Shown here: in pieces, positions 622 through 36,139 of the stretch
Layout: each line of letters starts with the position of its first letter
Position numbering within the stretch: the first letter of the stretch is position 1
Source of the DNA: Bacteroidota bacterium
GTDB lineage: Bacteria; Bacteroidota; Rhodothermia; Rhodothermales; Bin80
Assembly (NCBI GenBank): GCA_028873925.1
Contig: JAPPNA010000009.1
Location: 1 to 36,139, forward strand
Length of the DNA: 36,139 nt
Direction: 5' to 3'
Notes under the pieces: model-generated
Database searches by the model: none
Told to the model about the DNA's origin: nothing
Seen by the model: only the letters and a program-made list of their open reading frames with translations
Made by a program: the position numbers and the translations under genes

Positions 622-909
622 ATGTCAACTCTTCGCACACTCAAACTCATCCAGGTTCTGCTGGCTGTAGCGATCACTTTCTTGGCTATAGGTTTGCGTC
701 AGACGGACCCAGCGGTTGCAGATCAACAGACAGAAGAGCAAGATCACAAGATGGATGTTCGTGGGGGCTGTATATTTGTAAATGGACCGAGAAGTGGGCC
801 TCCCTGTTACCGCGTGTTTTGTAGGGATCCTGGGACAGATTGCTCCAAATGGAGGGGTGCCTGTTTCACCCTGGATGAGGACGATGAAGATGGCTATTGT
901 GATTACTAA
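622..909 (+). CDS. small secreted Cys-rich protein (copy 1)
   Basis: A 95-residue exported protein of unknown function. Residues 1-33 form a signal peptide: a basic start (STLRTLK), a hydrophobic stretch VLLAVAITFLAIGL, and a likely cleavage near AVA-DQ. The mature part of about 60 residues has six cysteines spaced over its last 50 residues and a very acidic stretch (DEDDEDG) before the C-terminal CDY, suggesting a small disulfide-bonded secreted domain. An AGGA lies about six bases before the ATG. The gene is followed after 52 bases by a six-bladed propeller gene and then a thioredoxin-like gene on the same strand. A similar-sized exported Cys protein sits upstream of a decayed propeller at the other end of the window. 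The arrangement recalls the small NVEALA-type proteins found beside propeller genes in Bacteroides, but I see no NVEALA motif, so family membership is not claimed. Confidence 0.7.
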   Translation: MSTLRTLKLIQVLLAVAITFLAIGLRQTDPAVADQQTEEQDHKMDVRGGCIFVNGPRSGPPCYRVFCRDPGTDCSKWRGACFTLDEDDEDGYCDY

Positions 910-961
910 GCATAGCTGCGTCCTTTCCAAAAGGGGCAAATGCAGCCGCTAAGAGGTTAAC

Positions 962-1987
962 ATGGTTCTGGCTGAGGGTTGGACTCAATGGACGCTTTTG
1001 TTGGCGATCGGCATTTCTGCGGTTGCTGAGGTGTCTGCCCAAGACGAGTCTGCCGCTGAATTGAAGTATTTCAAGTCAGTACGAACGATCGTGTTTGACG
1101 ACCCGGATGTGCCGCCGATTGCTGCCATTGATCACATGGATGTGGATGCATCCGGCCGATTGCTCGTGACAGATGAGCTGGGCGAGCAAGTGTTGCTGTT
1201 TGACTCTAAAGGAATACTGCTCGCTTCGCTGGATCCACGGGGCTGTCACCCTGGATTCACCTTTCTGCCTGTTGGGGCCATGTTTGGGGGAGATGAGTAC
1301 ATTTTTCTCCGAAATGCAGGGCCTTGGGGGTATCTTTTTACATCAGAGGGTGCCTGTATGGAAGATGTGGACCCCGAATTCGTGCCATCAACATTTATGG
1401 ACATTGATCCGACCGGGACCTTGTTTGGAGTACAGGAAAAACCCTTCTGGGAAGTACGACGTATGAGCCCCTCCGGCAAGCTCCAAGAAACATTCCCCGT
1501 AATGGAACCCCGGTATCCCAACGCGAGCAGCCGATACGCTGATGGTGGGGTCGTTGCCGATGGGACGCACATCTATTTCGCGTGGGCACCTGAGCCAGCT
1601 GTCTTGAAATACACTCTGGCTGGCGAGTTTGTACGCAAAATCCAGAAGCGCTCGCGATACTTCAAGCCGCCGGATGCCGACCTGCCAGCTGAAGTGTCGC
1701 CGGAATTGTTCGCCGCGCTTAGGAGATGGACCGGGACCATTACGCGCTCCGTACTTGAACTGGATGACCATATTATCATGGTCCAGTACCTTGACTATCA
1801 ACGGGGCACTGGCTATCAGGTGTTCAGCAAGGATGGGACCCTGATTGCTGAAGAACTCGGCATCGGGGGCCGGTTCTTTATCCACGGACGTGATGGATTT
1901 GCTTATGGCATCATCCAACCGGACTTGGACGAAAAGGGCGAATTGCCCAACCCCTACTTGATAGTATACAAATTCTCGCCCCCATAA
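962..1987 (+). CDS. exported six-bladed beta-propeller protein
   Basis: A 341-residue protein of the six-bladed beta-propeller (NHL/TolB-like) type. An AGAGG lies five bases upstream of the ATG. The N-terminus has a signal peptide (WTLLLAIGISAVAEVSA) with likely cleavage before QDE. The mature chain shows repeated blades with the usual pattern of a hydrophobic strand followed by a D-x-x-G turn: 'DVDASGRLLVTDE', 'LFDSKGILLASL', 'DIDPTGTLFG', 'KYTLAGEFVRKI', 'VFSKDGTLIAEE'. In Bacteroidota such proteins are cell-envelope or secreted proteins of mostly unknown ligand. It lies between the Cys-rich miniprotein and the thioredoxin-like gene (11 bases downstream), probably one transcript. Unlike the decayed copy at the right end, it has no lipobox cysteine, so it should be periplasmic or secreted rather than lipid-anchored. 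Fold assignment is firm; function is unknown. Confidence 0.8.
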   Translation: MVLAEGWTQWTLLLAIGISAVAEVSAQDESAAELKYFKSVRTIVFDDPDVPPIAAIDHMDVDASGRLLVTDELGEQVLLFDSKGILLASLDPRGCHPGFTFLPVGAMFGGDEYIFLRNAGPWGYLFTSEGACMEDVDPEFVPSTFMDIDPTGTLFGVQEKPFWEVRRMSPSGKLQETFPVMEPRYPNASSRYADGGVVADGTHIYFAWAPEPAVLKYTLAGEFVRKIQKRSRYFKPPDADLPAEVSPELFAALRRWTGTITRSVLELDDHIIMVQYLDYQRGTGYQVFSKDGTLIAEELGIGGRFFIHGRDGFAYGIIQPDLDEKGELPNPYLIVYKFSPP

Positions 1988-1998
1988 CGGACAGCCTC

Positions 1999-2613
1999 AT
2001 GTCCTCGCCCGTTAAGACTGAAGTCACCAAGGTGTTGGCCTTAGCTGTGCTCCTCATTCTGAGTATCGGGTATCTCCCAATTAGTGACACCGACGAGCAC
2101 TCTTCCTCAACTGGAGATTTTCATGTTGATGTCAATTTCAGTTCCGTGGACTCACTTTGGTTGGCCTTCGTAGGACAGGTCATTGCGCCGCTCCACGCCC
2201 GTAATACTTTGCCCGGATATCAGATAGGTGCCCTTGATTTGACAGCTCCGAGCCTGATCATCCCCATTCCCGGGAATTCCTGCATCCAACGACAGGTTAC
2301 GGCACTAAGACGAATTCGGGACTTGCATGACCTCATTGGCGGAGAACTGCCTGTCCGGGTGCTTCTACTGTCTCAATTTGATGAAGATGCCACGAGAATG
2401 AAGGCGCTCCTTCTTCGGAAAGCCATTCGCCCCTCGTTTGAGTTGTGGTACAGCAATGAGCTGACCCGTCTTTCAAAGAGTATCCTCCTTCGGCAGTTGG
2501 AGCCAGTCCTCTTGGTCAGTAATTCCACGGTAGCTGAGGTGTATCATGCTGTTGAGCATGACAGAATCAAGCGTGCTGTCGCTGAAATGAAGGCATCTGC
2601 GTCTGCAGATTGA
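1999..2613 (+). CDS. thioredoxin-like membrane-anchored protein
   Basis: A 204-residue protein with an N-terminal hydrophobic segment at about residues 11-27 (VLALAVLLILSIGYLPI), which could be a signal anchor. The rest has the look of a degraded AhpC/TlpA-type thioredoxin fold: a strand LIIPIPGNSC, then a helix, then VRVLLLSQF, and a late strand PVLLVSN resembling the cis-Pro-containing part of thioredoxins. There is only one cysteine, about residue 95, at the place where a CxxC would normally sit, so dithiol oxidoreductase activity is unlikely. It begins 11 bases after the propeller gene and probably shares its transcript. The thioredoxin-like call is an inference from strand order and position, not from a conserved active site. 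Confidence 0.55.
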   Translation: MSSPVKTEVTKVLALAVLLILSIGYLPISDTDEHSSSTGDFHVDVNFSSVDSLWLAFVGQVIAPLHARNTLPGYQIGALDLTAPSLIIPIPGNSCIQRQVTALRRIRDLHDLIGGELPVRVLLLSQFDEDATRMKALLLRKAIRPSFELWYSNELTRLSKSILLRQLEPVLLVSNSTVAEVYHAVEHDRIKRAVAEMKASASAD

Positions 2614-2932: not shown

Positions 2933-5308
2933 ATGGACGTACGTCTGATGTGGCGGAACAGGAATACATCAGGGGATTGGATTCCAAGACTCGTGTGCGG
3001 GGTGAGTTGGTTGGTGCTAGCAGGTCACGCGGGCGCTCAGACTCACGGGGTCCAAGGGTATGTGACCAACGGGGTGACGGGCGAGGTGTTGATCGGTGCG
3101 CACGTTTATGAGTTGCGTACCGGAAAGGGCGCGGTAACCAATCAGTACGGATTTTTCAGGCTGCTCGCCGCCGCCGACACATTTCGCTTACAGATTAGTC
3201 ATGTCGGGTATGAGCAACTTATCCGTGAGCTCATTCCCTTCAACAGTGTCAGGACGTTTGAATTACGGCCTCTCGTGACCCGGTTGGACTCAGTTGTCGT
3301 CACAGCGGATACTGAGCAGCTGGAACATCGGTTGCTCTTGGGCAAAGTTACGATCGCACCGGAGGAGGTGGCTACACTATCGGCGCTGCTTGGAGAGGCG
3401 GATATCCTGAAGGTGTTTCAGCTGAAGCCCGGGATATCCTTCGGGACGGAAGGCACTTCAGGCCTTCATGTGCGCGGGGGCAGCCCGGACCAGAATCTCG
3501 TGATTGTTGATGGAGCACCGATCTACAACTGGAGTCATGTGTTCGGATTCGTCTCCAGCTTCAATCATGACGCTCTCAATGAGGCTGATCTCTATAAGGG
3601 ATGGTTTCCCGCCCGATACGGTGGACGCTTGTCGTCAGTGATAGACCTGACCATGCGCGAGGGCAACCGCCGTGAATTTGAAGGTGGGGGGACCTTGGGA
3701 CTGCTGGCTTCCCGAGTGACAGTTGAAGGGCCCATTCGGAAGAACGAGAGCTCCTTTATCATTTCGGCGCGGCGCACTTATCTGGATCTGCTGGTCCGAC
3801 CGCTCAATTGGATTGGCGGGACGGATTTTCTGATAAGATATCATTTTGGCGATATCAATGCGAAGGCCAACATGATTCTTTCTAGCCGAGATCACGCGTT
3901 TATCAGCGTGTATGCTAGCCAGGACAGCTACTACCTGCGTGATGGTCCTAAGGAAGAACAGGTACGCAATGGTGTCGGTTGGGGGAATCTGGTTGGAACG
4001 CTGCGGTGGAATCGGGTCCTTATGCGCAAGATGTTCTTGAATTTTGCGCTGTTGCACAGCCGCTACAGGTATTCCGCGCTTGACAGATATACGGTCTCCG
4101 CAGTCAATTCCGGCAGCCGAACCAATGAGTTGTATGAGACGCGATTCAGATCGGGAGTTTCAGACTGGACTGCAAAGGCTGACTTGGAGTATAGCCCCTT
4201 AATGAGGCATGGCCTACGCTTCGGTTCCTCTCTGAGTCGCAAGCGGTACACGCCGGGTGTGCAACGCGTCCGTGAAAGAGCTGGTGTCGCCTCCGTTCAG
4301 GACACGCTGATTGAGACCAATAGGGAGCATGTTGCTCTTGAATGGCATGCTTATGTGGAAGATACAGGACGTTTCAAAGAGCGGATTCGGATCAACGGGG
4401 GGTTTCATTTGTCAGGATTCAGGGCACGGGGGGCGCGTTATGCATCCGTGGAACCCCGCGTTTCGGCACTGATTTGGATATCGCCCGCCTGGGCAGCTAC
4501 GGGTTCGTATGCTCGTGCGTACCAGTATGTACACCTTCTAACAAATAGCGGTGTCGGACCACCGACTGACCTCTGGGTACCCAGTACCCGTCGCGTCTCC
4601 CCGCAGCGGGCCTGGCAGCTGAGCGCAGGGGTGTCCCGCGAGCGGACGCAAGATGCAATCGCGGCGAGCATTACAGGATATTACAAGGCCATGAACGGTG
4701 TGATTGAATACTTGGAAGGGAGCAGTCTTGTCGGGCTAAGGCGTGATTGGGAGAGCCAGATAGCTGCCGGACGCGGATGGTCCTATGGCATCGAAACGCT
4801 GATTGAGCGAAAGCGGCGCAAGTTGAGCGGATGGATCGGGTATACACTCTCCTGGACTTGGCGACGCGTGCCCGGTATCAATCAGGGACGACCTTATCCG
4901 TACCGGTACGACCGCAGGCATGACATTTCAGTAGCACTCACTCGGCCCCTTGGCCGCCGCACGGTGTCCGTTTCCTGGGTGTTCGCATCCGGTCATGCAG
5001 TCTCAGTTCCCATCGCGCAATATATTGAAGACGGAACCCTGGTCAGCATAATCCAAGGGCGAAATCAGCAGCGCATGCCCGCGTACCACCGGCTAGATCT
5101 GAGTCTCCATTCGCCCAGGAGAAACGGCAGAAACAGGCTCACGATCAGCATCTACAATCTGTATAATCACCGCAACGCCTTCTACACCTATGTCCGGGAA
5201 TCCTCAGAATTTGACCCCTTTGCAGGTTACGCTGACGAAGGCCGCAGCTTTCGAAAGGTAACCCTGTTCCCGGTGATCCCGTCTGTCAGTTACAGCTTCA
5301 CCTTTTGA
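2933..5308 (+). CDS. TonB-dependent receptor with CarboxypepD-like N-domain
   Basis: A 791-residue outer-membrane active transporter. The order of domains is: signal peptide (LVCGVSWLVLAGHAGAQ), a carboxypeptidase-regulatory-like beta-sandwich at about residues 37-112 (GYVTNGVTGEVLIGAHVY ... GFFRL), a plug domain at about 140-260 with the typical 'LHVRGGSPDQNLVIVDGAPIY' type motif (here split around HVRGGSPDQN and VIVDGAPIYN) and GWFPARYGGRLSSVIDL, then a 22-strand barrel ending in a C-terminal phenylalanine (SYSFTF). This is the SusC-like architecture common in Bacteroidota. No TonB box can be assigned with confidence. The DUF4249 lipoprotein gene begins nine bases after its stop, a pairing frequently seen in this phylum. 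The substrate is unknown. A second ATG at 2948 would also leave an intact signal peptide. Confidence 0.9.
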   Translation: MDVRLMWRNRNTSGDWIPRLVCGVSWLVLAGHAGAQTHGVQGYVTNGVTGEVLIGAHVYELRTGKGAVTNQYGFFRLLAAADTFRLQISHVGYEQLIRELIPFNSVRTFELRPLVTRLDSVVVTADTEQLEHRLLLGKVTIAPEEVATLSALLGEADILKVFQLKPGISFGTEGTSGLHVRGGSPDQNLVIVDGAPIYNWSHVFGFVSSFNHDALNEADLYKGWFPARYGGRLSSVIDLTMREGNRREFEGGGTLGLLASRVTVEGPIRKNESSFIISARRTYLDLLVRPLNWIGGTDFLIRYHFGDINAKANMILSSRDHAFISVYASQDSYYLRDGPKEEQVRNGVGWGNLVGTLRWNRVLMRKMFLNFALLHSRYRYSALDRYTVSAVNSGSRTNELYETRFRSGVSDWTAKADLEYSPLMRHGLRFGSSLSRKRYTPGVQRVRERAGVASVQDTLIETNREHVALEWHAYVEDTGRFKERIRINGGFHLSGFRARGARYASVEPRVSALIWISPAWAATGSYARAYQYVHLLTNSGVGPPTDLWVPSTRRVSPQRAWQLSAGVSRERTQDAIAASITGYYKAMNGVIEYLEGSSLVGLRRDWESQIAAGRGWSYGIETLIERKRRKLSGWIGYTLSWTWRRVPGINQGRPYPYRYDRRHDISVALTRPLGRRTVSVSWVFASGHAVSVPIAQYIEDGTLVSIIQGRNQQRMPAYHRLDLSLHSPRRNGRNRLTISIYNLYNHRNAFYTYVRESSEFDPFAGYADEGRSFRKVTLFPVIPSVSYSFTF

Positions 5309-5317
5309 AAACGCCGA

Positions 5318-6619
5318 ATGAGTACTGTCAGATCGTTGATCCCATTGCTGCTGTGCATCGTGCTGGGTTGTGAGGGTCCGGTGGAGTTCCCGGGCTATCC
5401 TTATCAACCGAAGCTCGTTGTAACGAGCGAATTCTCAGCGCAGTCCGCCTGGCATGCAGTTCTGCAACGTACGGTGGGCTTTGATGAAGTGGTTTCTTTT
5501 CCAGTCGGAGTGGAGCACGCAACTATTGCCGTAACGGGCGATGATGGCTCGCAGGTTGAGCTGATGCACAAGGGAGGCGGGTTTTACCAGGCCGGTTGCT
5601 GCCGACCCAAACCCGGGGTTACGTACCAGATGGTGGTTCGGGCTGACGGATTTGTACAGGCCACCGCGAGCGACAGATTGCCTGCAACGGTGCCGATAGA
5701 CGTGGTACGTAGAACGACTGTGGTCCGGGAGGGAAGACCGACAGCCCGCCTTGAGATTGATTTCCAGGATGCTAGGGGTGTACGCAATTATTACGAGCTG
5801 TCCGTCTTGCTGGATGTGCGTTGGCTGCCAGTAGGATTCACGGTCCTGAATGTTGAAGTGCAGGATCAGCTGCAGGATTATGGCGTGGGTGATTTCATCG
5901 AACCGGACTTAGCCGCCATTTTTGTCAGACGAGTTCTCCTCCACGATGACGGATTTGATGGTAAGGCGTATACCTTGATTTTGGAAGTAGATCCATTTCA
6001 TTCGGTTGAAGAGATTGGAGGTCCCCTTTCCGTTAAACTGCGCACGGTGAGTGAAGCGTATTATCAGTACCGGCGGTCGCAGTTGTTGCAGGAAAATCTG
6101 AGCGTAGACCCATTCGCGGAGCCAGTTACGATAAGGTCAAATGTTATGGGCGGACACGGCGTATTCGCCGGTTATGCTCCGCAGACCCACGGCGACCTGT
6201 CCGACACCGTGCTGCTTCAGCGGATTGCAGGGCCCTATGTACTCTCCTACTTTGATGTGCGCAGGGATGGCGCGGGGTTTCTCTACGTTACCGGGGGTGA
6301 TTCGGGGAAATTGGAGCTGCAAACAGATCACAGGGTACTCGGGGAATTACAGATACCGCTGAACAATGGGGAGTTCTGGTCCGCCAGCCTGGACGGAGGA
6401 TTCGTGTTAAGTGGAACCAGTCTGCGTTTGTTTCACAGTGCGGATACAGCGCTCAGGGACATGGAATTTGAGTACAGGCCTGAATATTCAACGCTAAACG
6501 GCAACATAGCCATCGATTTCGGAGAGTACGTAGCAGTCGAGTTCAAAAAGGCGGATACGCAGCCGACACCTGTTCAACAGCGTCCAGTCTCGTTATCTGG
6601 TTCCACGCCCAGACCGTAA
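5318..6619 (+). CDS. DUF4249 family lipoprotein
   Basis: A 433-residue lipoprotein. The N-terminus is a lipoprotein signal (LIPLLLCIVLGC) with the lipid-modified cysteine at residue 18. The following region (QPKLVVTSEFSAQ ... VEHATIAVTGDDG ... GGGFYQAG, then PGVTYQMVVRADGF) is typical of DUF4249, a family that accompanies TonB-dependent receptors in Bacteroidota. The protein is probably attached to the outer membrane and works with the upstream receptor, either as a surface or periplasmic accessory factor; the precise role is not known for the family. It starts nine bases after the receptor stop, so the two are almost certainly cotranscribed. The C-terminus is rich in Pro, Gln and Thr and appears disordered. 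Confidence 0.85.
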   Translation: MSTVRSLIPLLLCIVLGCEGPVEFPGYPYQPKLVVTSEFSAQSAWHAVLQRTVGFDEVVSFPVGVEHATIAVTGDDGSQVELMHKGGGFYQAGCCRPKPGVTYQMVVRADGFVQATASDRLPATVPIDVVRRTTVVREGRPTARLEIDFQDARGVRNYYELSVLLDVRWLPVGFTVLNVEVQDQLQDYGVGDFIEPDLAAIFVRRVLLHDDGFDGKAYTLILEVDPFHSVEEIGGPLSVKLRTVSEAYYQYRRSQLLQENLSVDPFAEPVTIRSNVMGGHGVFAGYAPQTHGDLSDTVLLQRIAGPYVLSYFDVRRDGAGFLYVTGGDSGKLELQTDHRVLGELQIPLNNGEFWSASLDGGFVLSGTSLRLFHSADTALRDMEFEYRPEYSTLNGNIAIDFGEYVAVEFKKADTQPTPVQQRPVSLSGSTPRP

Positions 6620-12875: not shown

Positions 12876-14024
12876 GTGACCGGAAGCCAGCACCACCAAC
12901 GCGCGACGATTTCGTCGATCCGGATCCAAGGGTTTCGTTCGCTGGCCGACCTAAACCTTGAAGAATTGAGTCAGGCGGTCGTTCTCATCGGGGCCAACGG
13001 CTCGGGGAAGTCCAATCTGATCCGGTTCTTTGAAATGATGAGTTGGATGCTTCGTGCCCGGCGGCTAGGGGAGTTTGTGGAACGGCAGGGAGGTGCTGGC
13101 GATCAGCTCTTTGGGGGGCATTCAACTACCGCAGTAATTGAGGCTGAGATTGGCTTGCGTACTGGCAGCGGGCAGAATGACTACAAATTCGCGCTCGCAC
13201 ATGCACATCCCGATCGATTCATTTTCACACGTGAAGGGTTCCGCATCAGCAGGGAAGGAAGCCACGAGATGGCACCGTGGCAATGGTTGGGAATTGCTCA
13301 CCGAGAGGCCGAAATCATTGCGGCGATGGAGGACAACGGGGCCCATGATGTTAACCCCCAAACGGCCAGAGTCATCGTGAGTTTGCTGCGAAGCTGCGCG
13401 GTGTACCAGTTTCATGATACGTCAGATACGTCCAGTTTCAAGAAGAATTGGGACGTTGACAGTACCAGTAGCGAGCTTAGAAGCCACGGTGGAAACCTGG
13501 CCGCAGTCTTGTACCGTTTGGAACAGGAAGACTCGCGACGGTACGAGTGGATTTGCGATCAGATCCGGAGAGTGTTGCCGATTTTTGATCGGTTCACGAT
13601 TTCCGGGCGTTATGGCCGGGTGTATTTGAGCTGGAAAGCGCGGGGTCAGGAGAAAACCTACGGGGCCCATCTCACGTCTGATGGTACGCTCCGATTTTTT
13701 GCTCTGGTGACGCTGCTCAACCTGCCTTCTGAAATGCTGCCGCAGGTCTTGTTGCTGGACGAACCGGAGTTGGGTCTGCACCCGGCCGCTGTTTCATTGG
13801 TCGGTGGGATGATCCGGTCCCTTTCTGCGAATCGGCAGATCATTGTAGCAACGCAGTCACCAATGTTGGTGGATACCTTTGATATAGACGAAATCATCGT
13901 GTTTGACCTGGTGAACGGACGGACCGAGTCAAGAACTCTTGCTCGCCATCAGTACGGCCAGTGGCTGGACGAATTCACCACGGGTGAATTGTGGCAGAAA
14001 AATCTGCTTGGTGGCCATCCGTGA
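12876..14024 (+). CDS. AAA family ATPase, RecF/SMC-like, of an ATPase-DUF4276 pair
   Basis: A 382-residue cytoplasmic ATPase. The N-terminus has the ABC/SMC-type start 'ISSIRIQGFRSLADLNLEEL', then Walker A GANGSGKS at residues 39-46. The C-terminal half has HLTSDGTLRFFAL in the position of an ABC signature region, Walker B LLLDEPELGLHP at about 291-303, and the H-loop-like ATQSPMLVD at about 325. This is the COG4637-like group of predicted ATPases. The GTG start has an AAGGGGACGAG sequence upstream. The last four bases overlap the GTG start of a DUF4276 gene, a pairing seen repeatedly in bacterial genomes and analogous in layout to ATPase + Toprim defence systems such as Gabija and PARIS (AriA/AriB). 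A role in anti-phage defence is inferred from this architecture and the neighbouring AbiE-type pair. Confidence 0.85.
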   Translation: MTGSQHHQRATISSIRIQGFRSLADLNLEELSQAVVLIGANGSGKSNLIRFFEMMSWMLRARRLGEFVERQGGAGDQLFGGHSTTAVIEAEIGLRTGSGQNDYKFALAHAHPDRFIFTREGFRISREGSHEMAPWQWLGIAHREAEIIAAMEDNGAHDVNPQTARVIVSLLRSCAVYQFHDTSDTSSFKKNWDVDSTSSELRSHGGNLAAVLYRLEQEDSRRYEWICDQIRRVLPIFDRFTISGRYGRVYLSWKARGQEKTYGAHLTSDGTLRFFALVTLLNLPSEMLPQVLLLDEPELGLHPAAVSLVGGMIRSLSANRQIIVATQSPMLVDTFDIDEIIVFDLVNGRTESRTLARHQYGQWLDEFTTGELWQKNLLGGHP

Positions 14025-14674
14025 TTAGACTTGCAGTTGTAGCTGAGGGGCTGACGGAGACGGATTTCGCGAACGGAATTCTCTCAGAGCATTTGAGGGG
14101 CAGGAACATCTGTACGACAGCAATCCTGATGGGCCGTGGGCGTGCCGCAAAAGGGGGGAACGTCACTGTTGATGGGATTGCAGCGGAAATGGCCCGGCTC
14201 TACTGGGACTTTGACTTTGTGACCTCGCTGGTAGACTATTATGGGTTTCGCGGTAAGGGCACAATGACAGTTGAGGAATTGGAAGAGGAAATTGCCAGTC
14301 GGACCTGTCAGAGATTCGGGTCTGGATGGGATTCGCGGAAGATCCGTCCGTATGTGCAGTTACATGAGTTTGAGGGGCTTCTGTTTTCTGATGTGAGCGC
14401 GTTTACAAGAGTGCCGGACGCACCGAAGAATCTATTGACATCCTTAAGAGAAATCCGGTCCAGGTTTCGGACTCCCGAGGACATCAACGATAAACGAGAT
14501 ACGGCCCCCAGCAGGCGCATTTGTCAGTTGATCCCCAATTACAATAAGAGATTTCAGGGGGGTTTTCTGGCCGGATTGATCGGGCTTGACAAGATCCGCG
14601 AAGAGTGCCCCCGATTCAATCAGTGGGTGGCCAGTCTTGAGTCACTGCGAGTTCAGACGGACGGCCCGAATTAG
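14021..14674 (+). CDS. DUF4276 family Toprim-like protein
   Basis: A 217-residue protein of the DUF4276 family. Supporting motifs are the N-terminal VVAEGLTETDF (the conserved glutamate is residue 9, in a Toprim-like EGxTE context), 'FVTSLVDYYGFRGKG' with the acidic D-x(n)-Y segment, and YVQLHEFEGLLFSD at about residues 110-124, typical of the family. Toprim folds use such acidic residues to bind magnesium for nucleic-acid cleavage or related chemistry; that this protein is a nuclease is inference. The GTG at 14021 was chosen because it forms a four-base GTGA overlap with the stop of the ATPase gene and places the first conserved strand at the N-terminus. The two proteins are expected to be made together and to form a complex. 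Confidence 0.8.
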   Translation: MIRLAVVAEGLTETDFANGILSEHLRGRNICTTAILMGRGRAAKGGNVTVDGIAAEMARLYWDFDFVTSLVDYYGFRGKGTMTVEELEEEIASRTCQRFGSGWDSRKIRPYVQLHEFEGLLFSDVSAFTRVPDAPKNLLTSLREIRSRFRTPEDINDKRDTAPSRRICQLIPNYNKRFQGGFLAGLIGLDKIREECPRFNQWVASLESLRVQTDGPN

Positions 14675-15154: not shown

Positions 15155-16258
15155 ATGAAAAGCCCGGAATTAGTGAAATGCACTGGCGAGACGGGTCTAA
15201 AGGCGGCCTGTGATCTGCTGAACCGGGTGCTGGACCTGAAGATCAGCGCGGTTTATCGTGATCCGAAGCCTAACAGTATCCTGGGGACTGACGGACGTGT
15301 TGAATTCGACCAAGGCGATGTAGCCTATGCGCTCATCATAAAGGTCTTGCCAGACGGAGCTCCTCGTTTCGTCCGGTCCATGGTCTTGCAGCTTATGGGG
15401 CACTTGGAGCATGTACGGCAGTCCGGTCAAGAAGATTGCGGTCGACATCTGATCCCGATGCTCGTAAGCCCTTACCTGTCGCCCCAGTCTCGGTCAATAT
15501 GCGCCGATCACGGGGTCGCCTACCTCGATCGGGTTGGGAATGCTCTTGTTTCCTTCAATAGTGTCTATATCAATCGGGCGGTCGCTGAAAAACCCAAGTC
15601 GGAAGCCCGATCTCTTGGTTCGCTCTTCAGCCCCAAAGCGGGAGCGGTTCTGCGGGTCCTCCTTCAAGGCCCTGAGCAAACATGGCGCGTCATGGACTTA
15701 GCGGCAGCAGCTAATGTGAGCCTAGGTCATGTGAGCAACATTCGCAAAGCTTTAATGGCAAGGGAGTGGGTTGAGGAGCGAAAGAATGGCATCATCCTGG
15801 CTCAGCCGGATGCACTGTTGAGGACATGGCGCAAGGAATACCGTCCTCCGACCGACCGACAGGTCACTGGCTACACGCTTTTCCACGGGGACCAGCTCAA
15901 CAAACAACTGCCGGAAATTCTAAATCCGAACCCACAGCGTCCACGTGCAATTCTATCGGCACACTCGGCCGCCCAATGGCTTGCGCCGTTCGCTCGCAGT
16001 GGTACGCTCAGCTTCTATGCTGATGAGCCCGGCATGCGGAAGCTGAAAATGGCACTGAATATTGCTCATACGCAACGGGGGTCAAATGTCATCGTGCGCC
16101 TCCCGAAGGATGACACCCTGTTCGCTGATGCTGTTCAGCCAGTGCCGGGCATTTATTGCACCAACCCGGTCGTCACGTACCTCGATCTGTACAGTGGGAA
16201 CGACCGTGATCGTGAGGCAGCTGACCATATGGCATCAGAGTACTATCCATGGCTATGA
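15155..16258 (+). CDS. AbiEi-like antitoxin/transcriptional regulator
   Basis: A 367-residue protein resembling the long AbiEi-type antitoxins of type IV toxin-antitoxin systems. The N-terminal third (LKAACDLLNRVLDL ... VRSMVLQLMGHLEHVRQ ... LVSPYLSPQSRSICADHG) resembles a restriction-enzyme-like fold region. Residues about 163-215 form a winged helix: 'AGAVLRVLLQGPEQTWRV', DLAAAANVSLGHVSNIRKAL, then the wing EWVEERKNGIILAQPDALL. The C-terminal part ends with NPVVTYLDLYSGNDRDREAA, typical of this group. AbiEi proteins repress their own promoter and neutralise the AbiEii nucleotidyltransferase. The partner gene starts at an ATGA overlap with this stop, but carries an in-frame TAG. The assignment is from motif memory; an orphan regulator of the same fold is the alternative. 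Confidence 0.72.
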   Translation: MKSPELVKCTGETGLKAACDLLNRVLDLKISAVYRDPKPNSILGTDGRVEFDQGDVAYALIIKVLPDGAPRFVRSMVLQLMGHLEHVRQSGQEDCGRHLIPMLVSPYLSPQSRSICADHGVAYLDRVGNALVSFNSVYINRAVAEKPKSEARSLGSLFSPKAGAVLRVLLQGPEQTWRVMDLAAAANVSLGHVSNIRKALMAREWVEERKNGIILAQPDALLRTWRKEYRPPTDRQVTGYTLFHGDQLNKQLPEILNPNPQRPRAILSAHSAAQWLAPFARSGTLSFYADEPGMRKLKMALNIAHTQRGSNVIVRLPKDDTLFADAVQPVPGIYCTNPVVTYLDLYSGNDRDREAADHMASEYYPWL

Positions 16259-17115
16259 ACGAGTTCCAAGCAGCCGCTGATTACGATGACCGGTTAACAA
16301 GGGCGGTAAAATCCGTGCTGGTGGAGATTCAGTAGATCTTGGGCAGTTTTAGCGGCAAGTTTGCAATAATCGGCGGTGCGGTCCCCTGGCTATTGCTAAG
16401 CAATGCCGATATGCCCCATGTTGGGACCGGAGACGTGGACCTCGTGCTTGACCCCGCCGCCTTGGGCGATGGCGAGTACGCAAAACTAATTGAAGCCCTG
16501 CAGGCACATGGTTACCATCAACGGCGCAATCTGCGGCGCTTTCAGCTTTTGCGCACCGTAGCTGCCAGAGATCATGGAATTAATATCGATGTTATCGTTG
16601 ACTTCCTGATGCCGCGCGACGCAGAAATAGCCAAGAGCATTTCGCCGCTGATCAGCGATTTTGCCGTTCAGCGTGCCGATGGTGCCGACTTGGCAATCAG
16701 ATTCTGGCAGTCGGTCGCTATAGAAGAAGACATGCCCGAAGGTGGCAGGAACCATGTTGAAATCGCGGTGGCATCAATTCCAGCTCTTATGGCGATGAAA
16801 GGATATGCCATCAGGAATCGTCTGAAGCACAAGGACGCTTACGACATCTACTATTCTATTCGAAATTTCCCGGGAGGAATCGGCGCACTGGTCCAGGGTA
16901 CCCGACCGCTTCTCGCTGTTGACTCGGACCGCAGGGGTTACTGCCTGATAGCGGAGAAATTCCGCAGCATAGATGATTTTGGACCTACCAGCGTTAGGCA
17001 ATTTGTTGAAGGCTCTCCGTCAGTTATGGGCGACCGCACACCGGCTCAATGGCAGCAGGATGCCTTTGGGCAGGTTTATGCCTGGCTCAAGGGGATTGGC
17101 CAGAGAGGAGCTTAG
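16255..17115 (+). pseudogene. AbiEii-like nucleotidyltransferase interrupted by an amber codon
   Basis: An AbiEii-type nucleotidyltransferase toxin gene. The natural start is ATG 16255, overlapping the AbiEi-like stop (ATGA). Codons 1-26 read MNEFQAAADYDDRLTRAVKS and VLVEIQ, then codon 27 is TAG (16333-16335). Beyond it the same frame runs 260 codons: FAIIGGAVPWLLLS contains the GG of the nucleotidyltransferase fold, and GTGDVDLVLD supplies the D-x-D catalytic pair. Further on are NIDVIVDFLMPRD, where the third acidic residue is expected, and MAMKGYAIRNRLKHKDAYDIYYSI, which is typical of the AbiEii family (LKxKDxxDI). A TTG at 16339, three bases after the TAG and 12 bases from a GGAG, could restart translation and yield a 258-residue protein with an intact catalytic core. 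It may therefore be a pseudogene, a gene expressed by reinitiation, or a sequencing error. Confidence 0.72.
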
Positions 17116-34642: not shown

Positions 34643-35730
34643 TCAGTACGGAAACGGATTGCGCAGCAGATGCGGCACATCACTAGCATAGACAAACATA
34701 TGGTCGCCGTACAGTAAGGCCTGGCTCATCGCCATCACTGGTCGGGCATCTGATTCCTCAGACTCCATAATGCGTGCTGCTCCGACATGATCAAACCTAC
34801 CATTGGATCCAATCCTGATAAAATGCCAGATGTCTCGGATCGGCACAGCCAGGAATTCATCATTCAGCACATGGACTCGCAGGATGGATATGCGGAGGTC
34901 CGTACCGGGTACGCCCGGTCGGCTCATGGTATAATTCCCGGCATGAGCGGTAACTGGAGCACCTGCCAGTCTGAGCGTGTGAATGTGCTCATGTGAATCA
35001 TTGAAGATGAGCAGGTAGGGCAATCCCACAAAGGCGACCACAACACGCGAGCCATTGGGCGTGGCACCGAAGGCAATGCCATCCATAGGGGGGCTTGTGA
35101 TGCCTATGGATTGCAAAAACGGGCCTTCTTCCTGAAAAGGCGGCTCAGCACTGCGCGGACACACCCGATACTCGCTACCTCGCCGACAGCTGGTATAGAT
35201 ATAGTTTTCGGTCGCCACTAGCCCCGTACCCGGCAACAGCTCGCTCTTTTGAGGTGGCAGGGACGCGATATACTCAAAATCTTGGGATAGCACTTGGATG
35301 CGGGAGGCTTCCCCAACGATAAAGTAGGTCCCGCTATAGGCCAATCGCTCAATTGATCAAACTCTCCTGGCCCTTTGCCCGCACGGCCGATTTGACGCAT
35401 GAGTACTCCATCGAAGCCGCTGGCATATATGGCATCCTGGAATCCTCCGAAATACAGGGTGTCCTGCGCGACCGCGAACATGAAAGGATTGGGAATTACA
35501 AGCTAATCCCGGGGATGCGCGAGTTCCATGTCAGGCACCCACCGGGATGGCGATGGGCGGTCCAAGTCAACCACCGTCTGGGGTGCAGCCATCAGTAGAT
35601 CATCGATGACAGGAGAATCAAGAATCCCGGCATGCTGGTCAAGCACATCTTGACCATGCTGGGTTCACTCAGAACAGGCTCCTGCCAGAATTCCCAATAA
35701 AACCACCGACGGGATGCAGAGTCTATGCAT
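34643..35730 (-). pseudogene. six-bladed beta-propeller lipoprotein, decayed (copy 2)
   Basis: A propeller lipoprotein gene broken in three places. The original start is ATG 35730: MHRLCIPSVVLLGILAGACS is a clear lipoprotein signal with lipobox LAGAC. Codon 22 is TGA (35665-35667). The same frame continues readable sequence (DVLDQHAGILDSPVIDDLLM, then PSRWVPDMELAHPRD) to a TAG at 35503-35505. It then reads NPFMFAVAQDTLYFGGFQDA and GKGPGEFDQ, a hallmark of these propellers. Near 35350-35356 (GATCAATTGAG) one base is missing; adding an A restores IERLAYSGTYFIVGEASRIQ, and the frame then runs intact through blades such as FEYIASLPP and LLIFNDSHEHIHTLRL to the stop at 34643. It overlaps the small secreted protein gene by eight bases. 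Assembly error cannot be excluded, but three independent lesions favour real decay. Confidence 0.8.
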
Positions 35731-35980
35731 CCGGCTGGCACGTAATCGTACCCGCGTACACCCCGCTTCCGCTCCAACCGCCGTAATCACCATCTGCGCA
35801 AGTAATGCGTAGGACCCATCCGTCCTCGTCCTGGCGAAAATACGTGTCGCAGTGTGAGGAATCGCAGACAAAGGTCCACTCCGCTGCCGCCAGCACCAAA
35901 GAATGCCCCAAAATCGCCAGTATTGGCGCGAACACCACGAGTGAGCGCCGGGGCCATCCGGAAAGCACTCTCGTCATCAT
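35723..35980 (-). CDS. small secreted Cys-containing protein (copy 2)
   Basis: An 85-residue exported protein. From ATG 35980 it has a basic N-terminus (MMTRVLSGWPRRS), a hydrophobic core LVVFAPILAILGHSLVLAAA and likely cleavage before EWTFVC. The mature domain of about 50 residues has four cysteines (in FVCDSSHCD, ITCADG and ITCQPDA) that could form two disulfides, and many Gly/Asp residues. The frame is open 18 codons further upstream, but that part is basic and would bury the signal peptide. Its stop overlaps the ATG of the decayed propeller lipoprotein gene by eight bases, the same order as the intact module at the left end. The gene itself shows no lesion. Function is unknown. Confidence 0.62.
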   Translation of the reverse strand: MMTRVLSGWPRRSLVVFAPILAILGHSLVLAAAEWTFVCDSSHCDTYFRQDEDGWVLRITCADGDYGGWSGSGVYAGTITCQPDA

Positions 35981-36139
35981 TGATCTACCGGTCCATTTGA
36001 GTTTGCAACAAATTTGAGGCGGCAGGTCCGCCACAGCTCACAGCAACGCACTCAGGTGCCAGCCAAGCCCGTTTGGAATTAGCACTTTCCTGACTTCGGC
36101 GGTTTACAATTGCAGTGAGTTATACAACATGCCCATTTT

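Follow-up and report, generated by a model that had tools for sequence, protein, structure and literature searches.

A conserved gene unit of Rhodothermales bacteria encoding an exported cysteine-rich miniprotein, a candidate propeller and a thioredoxin-like protein

The three-gene module and its proteins

The window (the whole stretch of 36,139 nucleotides analysed here, contig C61 of a 3.9 Mb assembly that was 98.6% complete) carried three closely spaced genes near its start. A miniprotein of 95 amino acids, designated M1, was encoded at 622-909 (+) and combined a signal peptide with a six-cysteine mature region; direct reading of the sequence displayed a Shine-Dalgarno-like AGGA motif 5' of its start codon (614-617, +). 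The miniprotein gene was followed, after 52 nt, by a gene for an exported protein of 341 amino acids and candidate 6-bladed-propeller type (962-1987, +) and, after a further 11 nt, by a gene for a membrane-anchored thioredoxin-fold protein of 204 amino acids, TrxL (1999-2613, +). An earlier note on this DNA had placed three open reading frames at exactly these positions. A TonB-dependent receptor bearing CarbopepD_reg_2 and plug domains and then a DUF4249 lipoprotein were encoded right after the module (2933-6619, +), and were excluded from it because they were absent from the downstream genes of the other modules for which such genes were listed. Elsewhere in the window, an AAA_21 ATPase gene preceded an overlapping gene for a DUF4276 protein (12876-14674, +), a pair that we take to look defence-like, and an AbiEi_2-like protein was followed by a weak AbiEii-like nucleotidyltransferase (15155-17115, +), a possible type IV toxin-antitoxin pair.

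By inspection, the M1 miniprotein displayed an N-terminal hydrophobic segment and a signal-peptidase-I-like, AxA-type site between AVA and DQ, and no double-glycine leader was seen in the window member. Its six cysteines were located at positions 50, 62, 67, 74, 81 and 93. Across an eight-member M1 alignment, C50, C62, Y63, C67, G71, C74, C81 and F82 were invariant, so that cysteines made up five of the eight invariant positions, while the total number of cysteines ranged from 4 to 8 with no fixed even number. The mature region of the window protein held one tryptophan, that of two members none, and that of the others one to four. The reading frame is under purifying selection (dN/dS of 0.14-0.32 between M1 paralogues, at high dS near saturation); the DNA 5' of paralogous miniproteins was partly conserved too. 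The predicted structure was moderately confident (pLDDT 76, pTM 0.45), and no significant PDB match to a known solved fold was obtained. A bacteriocin or RiPP precursor might have a modifying enzyme or a C39-peptidase exporter nearby; the direct downstream neighbours scanned were the TonB receptor and the DUF4249 lipoprotein, and the upstream view was limited to 621 nt, where the contig starts.

The second protein possessed a signal peptide by inspection and scored 10.4 bits against PF17170 (DUF5128), under the cut-off of 22.9. Weak matches to this family were obtained for 5 of 9 propeller members (best E 0.0067), and in hhalign the propellers found beside M1 and M2 (a further miniprotein type, below) were similar to those found beside a third type, M3 (79.6%, E 1.5e-5). 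Together, the weak family matches and the profile-profile similarity hint that the protein encoded at 962-1987 is of propeller type. Its cysteines C95 and C132 were conserved in all 42 relatives. A second pair of columns, near positions 148 and 199 of the window protein, held cysteine in 19 of 42 propellers each, and possibly forms a second disulfide in one lineage.

The AlphaFold2 model of TrxL displayed a thioredoxin fold (mean pLDDT 87), with a membrane helix at the N-terminus and a single cysteine, C95 in the motif NSCIQRQ, opening the active-site helix. Foldseek matches at probability 1.00 included SdbA, Bcp1 and ResA, with Bcp/peroxiredoxins among the PDB matches, while no Pfam match was obtained for the window protein. 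TrxL thus shared its fold and active-site cysteine position with TlpA/AhpC-type proteins (SdbA, ResA, peroxiredoxins), but differed from them in its second active-site cysteine: the first was conserved in 20 of 20 TrxL proteins, the second was lost in 17 and a CxxC motif was retained in 3. The window TrxL, having one cysteine only, lacked CxxC. The absence of the resolving cysteine in most members makes catalysis by TrxL doubtful. The earlier description of a six-cysteine exported miniprotein of 95 codons and of a single-cysteine thioredoxin-like protein was borne out, the cysteines and fold by sequence reading and modelling, and the export signal by inspection.

Recurrence and linkage of the module

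The miniprotein-propeller-TrxL unit is real and conserved in Rhodothermales bacteria. Among 16 genomes of the family, a single-sequence search recovered two further tandem M1 copies in the same genome (C55) and significant matches in five others (G011, G009, G014, G012 and G008), with more obtained by profile. Every M1 match lay directly 5' of a homologous propeller gene, with TrxL next in most cases. The M1-propeller pair, usually with the third gene, was found elsewhere in the same genome and in five to eight others, and the full order of three genes in the same genome (two sites), G011, G014, G012 and G008. Three distant modules (G017:C444, G034 and G017:C12) retained the order as well; two of them encoded a CxxC-type TrxL, and at G017:C444 a TlpA-like gene followed TrxL. 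The earlier note had proposed the three genes as one module and had staked this on conservation of the miniprotein upstream of homologous propellers, its absence counting as refutation; such conservation was found, and the order recurred within and between genomes as that of one unit.

In the fetched loci, an M1 or M2 gene stood just upstream of 27 of 79 propellers and of none of 129 other long open reading frames, a count for which the models were partly trained on the same loci. An out-of-sample search starting from TrxL alone was run for this reason, restricted to previously unseen loci with a propeller, a TrxL and enough flanking sequence, and using models built without them. Seven of the eight testable new loci displayed the order M2-propeller-TrxL, L224 being the exception; within this set the propeller of L231 was in pieces. 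Miniprotein and TrxL also co-occurred around propellers (counts of 17/10/6/48), although these loci share descent and had in part served to train the models, and the associated p-value is indicative at most.

Searches with single components gave different yields. TrxL homologues alone were found in 14 of 114 genomes, and an order-wide propeller search matched 22 of 114, with many diverged propellers. Scanning contigs with a single propeller as query returned no match, and with the propeller alignment as query 14 loci, all from Rhodothermales, Rhodothermaceae or Bacteroidetes/Bacteroidota metagenome-assembled genomes. A link to sponge hosts was considered and is not claimed, the literature found being silent on it. 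The genomes were mostly fragmented assemblies, and some contigs ended inside modules.

No recognised miniprotein accompanied 52 of the 79 propellers, and tandem propellers lacking miniproteins occurred. M1-type genes were frameshifted or fragmentary beside an open propeller frame at L049, L101, L102 and L237, as was an M2-type gene at L148. At L051 (4854-6020, G014:C1), the miniprotein leader was fused in frame to the propeller and the cysteine-rich part was gone, a miniprotein lost by deletion. Because several miniprotein genes were broken while the propeller remained open, the partnership between the two is not obligate.

Further miniprotein families and related systems

Beyond what the earlier note described, modules of this kind were numerous in the genome of the window and in related genomes, and included two or more miniprotein families apparently unrelated to M1. 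M2 miniproteins were exported, carried about 8 cysteines, often ended in CLYCGP, and lay upstream of many diverged propellers. Their dN/dS (about 0.7-0.8) was higher than that of their propellers (0.4-0.55). A membrane-anchored TrxL was often encoded behind the propeller with both types, M1 and M2.

The far end of the window encoded the third type, M3 (35723-36034, -), an exported protein from the list of open reading frames whose conserved region contains four cysteines. The propeller lipoprotein gene after it (34643-35721, -) was broken by frameshifts into several frames, whose fragments included VLLGILAGACSE and GRAGKGPGEF, so that this second module (34643-36034, -) is decayed. Searching with the M3 miniprotein alone recovered relatives, some of them weak, in six other genomes, and an intact propeller-sized open reading frame lay directly downstream at 9 of the 11 inspected M3 loci. 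Of three M3-propellers scanned, one scored 36.5 bits against PF17170, above the cut-off of 22.9. Cysteine number and spacing differed between M3 and M1/M2, no common Pfam family was found, and none of the three families had a Pfam match at cut-off; M1, M2 and M3 apparently represent at least three unrelated types, M3 being set apart by its cysteines. At L250, an additional exported cysteine-rich small open reading frame (LKCDGDVICTGLCTTTCDP..., 1071-1355) was located just upstream of an M3-propeller pair, and a similar-looking one stood before a long open reading frame on the minus strand of L148.

The arrangement resembles that of NVEALA (PF14055) clusters, in which a short exported cysteine-containing protein is likewise encoded directly upstream of a propeller. 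In a phylum-wide sample the NVEALA cut-off was passed in one genome only, G329, Bacteroides-like by content, where NVEALA genes stood directly before TolB_like/DUF5128 propellers, in several consecutive pairs, and the cluster also encoded a redoxin-like GCTSC protein. The statement in the earlier note that NVEALA proteins adjoin propeller genes in Bacteroides was seen to hold in this genome. The systems differ in that the genomes of the present family had no NVEALA match: the PF14055 profile matched none of the eight M1 members at E up to 10 and nothing in the 16 genomes at E 0.1, with a positive Bacteroides control. Membership of the window miniprotein in NVEALA is ruled out by this result, which agrees with the earlier note that the motif was missing. 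Homology of TrxL to the GCTSC protein of G329 was unsupported by hhalign. For the propellers, M3-type and NVEALA-locus proteins aligned strongly (96.5%, E 8e-10), whereas the direct comparison of M1/M2-propellers with NVEALA-propellers was weak. Since M3-propellers align to both ends, all three sets plausibly form one superfamily, as judged from these profile comparisons, with miniproteins that are not detectably related to each other.

DUF6520 (PF20130) loci of other Bacteroidota provided a looser parallel than the NVEALA-propeller pairs. There, small exported cysteine-containing proteins were encoded beside MauE, a thiol-redox partner often fused to an extra region of about 350 residues. At L180, L181, L182 and L192, the fused region next to DUF6520 was a conserved domain lacking a Pfam match; its homology to the propellers was unsupported. 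Gene order differed from that of the module, and the window miniprotein had no PF20130 match. Two distant M1 relatives scored under the cut-off (E 0.08 and 0.015) and the hhalign alignment of M1 with DUF6520 spanned the signal peptide only, and DUF6520 membership of M1 was rejected.

Methylamine dehydrogenase has a cysteine-rich small subunit and a propeller large subunit, and is matured with the thioredoxin-like protein MauD together with MauE. This system (mauA/mauB with mauD/mauE) shares with the module a small cysteine-rich partner, a propeller and a thioredoxin-like protein; it differs in that the module displayed neither the conserved tryptophan for the cofactor nor MauE. The role of MauD/MauE in this maturation is among the points cited in PMC7794033, which describes decRiPPter candidate families from Streptomyces where MauE/MauD genes accompany precursors of at least 8 cysteines. 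These families likewise place a cysteine-rich small protein beside disulfide-linked redox genes, but they belong to Streptomyces, and the passages of PMC7794033 that describe them mention no propeller. The literature search found nothing on NVEALA or DUF6520, and no title describing a miniprotein-propeller-TrxL module.

Proposed function and its alternatives

Export and anchoring features suggest that all three proteins reside in the cell envelope. The interpretation that we tentatively favour, at a confidence somewhat short of even, is a disulfide-bonded secreted miniprotein with a propeller partner and a dedicated TrxL making or holding the disulfides, a partnership that we infer from gene linkage. 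A disulfide-bearing pair with a thiol-redox partner is favoured because of the invariant cysteines (42 of 42 propellers and 20 of 20 TrxL) combined with the export features. After export and cleavage, the miniprotein would fold into a small peptide held by disulfides, either in the envelope or outside, and the propeller, with its own invariant cysteine pair, would be its co-encoded partner. TrxL, membrane-anchored and presumably facing the periplasm, may make, isomerise or covalently hold disulfides of the miniprotein, the propeller or both, acting in most members by way of a single active-site cysteine and in a few by way of CxxC. The peptide would be the variable, exchangeable part and the propeller a constant docking scaffold, a logic that would resemble methylamine dehydrogenase maturation stripped of its cofactor chemistry. 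Such a dispensable peptide on a constant scaffold fits the decay of peptide genes beside open propeller frames and the faster evolution of M2. Gene order and conservation, export and anchoring features of the sequences, the modelled fold of TrxL, the conserved cysteines and the several unrelated miniprotein families on related propellers are observations, whereas we infer physical binding, disulfide handling and whatever purpose a complex would serve. Such a complex could act in binding, in signal reception or in conflict, with the peptide as signal, toxin or subunit. The earlier note had suggested a secreted peptide with its own receptor or processing partner and a possible signalling, toxin or natural-product role, which is a conjecture at this stage.

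Several of these observations could also be accommodated by a released pheromone or interbacterial toxin, with the propeller as receptor, carrier or self-protection and TrxL merely folding the peptide. In its favour are the cleavable export signals, the presence of more than one module in a genome, the placement of unrelated miniproteins ahead of related propellers, the elevated dN/dS of M2 relative to its propellers and frequent decay, but neither a dedicated exporter or protease for processing nor a regulator was seen beside the module, and M1 is under purifying selection. PADLOC models likewise gave no significant match to M1 or M2 module proteins, for which reason an anti-phage defence identity was rejected, and release of the peptide is, on balance, an unlikely explanation if a serious one. 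Less probable still is a role as redox sensor or thiol store in the periplasm, in which miniprotein and propeller would be TrxL substrates whose thiol state reports oxidative stress: the conserved cysteines of all three proteins, the CxxC of three TrxL and the additional TlpA-like gene at one locus speak for it, against the single cysteine of most TrxL and the lack of any regulator or signalling gene fixed nearby.

The gene layout of methylamine dehydrogenase (propeller, small cysteine-rich subunit, thioredoxin-like protein) raises an enzyme of the methylamine or quinohemoprotein amine dehydrogenase kind, whose miniprotein would carry a Trp-derived cofactor. This is disfavoured, and highly improbable, because the miniprotein has no conserved tryptophan, and hence no tryptophan pair for TTQ; two M1 members have none at all in the mature region, and no cofactor-maturation gene was recognised nearby. 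Small open reading frames are often spurious and the module lies near the end of a contig from a metagenome-assembled genome, so chance neighbours or a spurious frame had to be weighed too. This least credible of the alternatives is at odds with the conservation, the selection and the linkage that independent tests brought out, and is refuted by the linkage recovered in TrxL-only and M3-only searches.

Beyond the favoured disulfide-bonded pair, a modular system might extend across Bacteroidota/Rhodothermota, in which a conserved envelope propeller would be combined with exchangeable, unrelated miniproteins (M1, M2, M3, NVEALA) and a thioredoxin-like or MauE-type folding partner, for peptide communication or conflict; this broader proposal is speculative and rather doubtful. 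Small secreted proteins are poorly annotated, and gene order here ties several unrelated families of them to one plausible propeller superfamily, and two of these families to one redox partner. Orphan small open reading frames thereby become a system that is open to testing and that recurs as several modules within a genome, which suggests that the NVEALA-propeller pairs of Bacteroides belong to a wider class.
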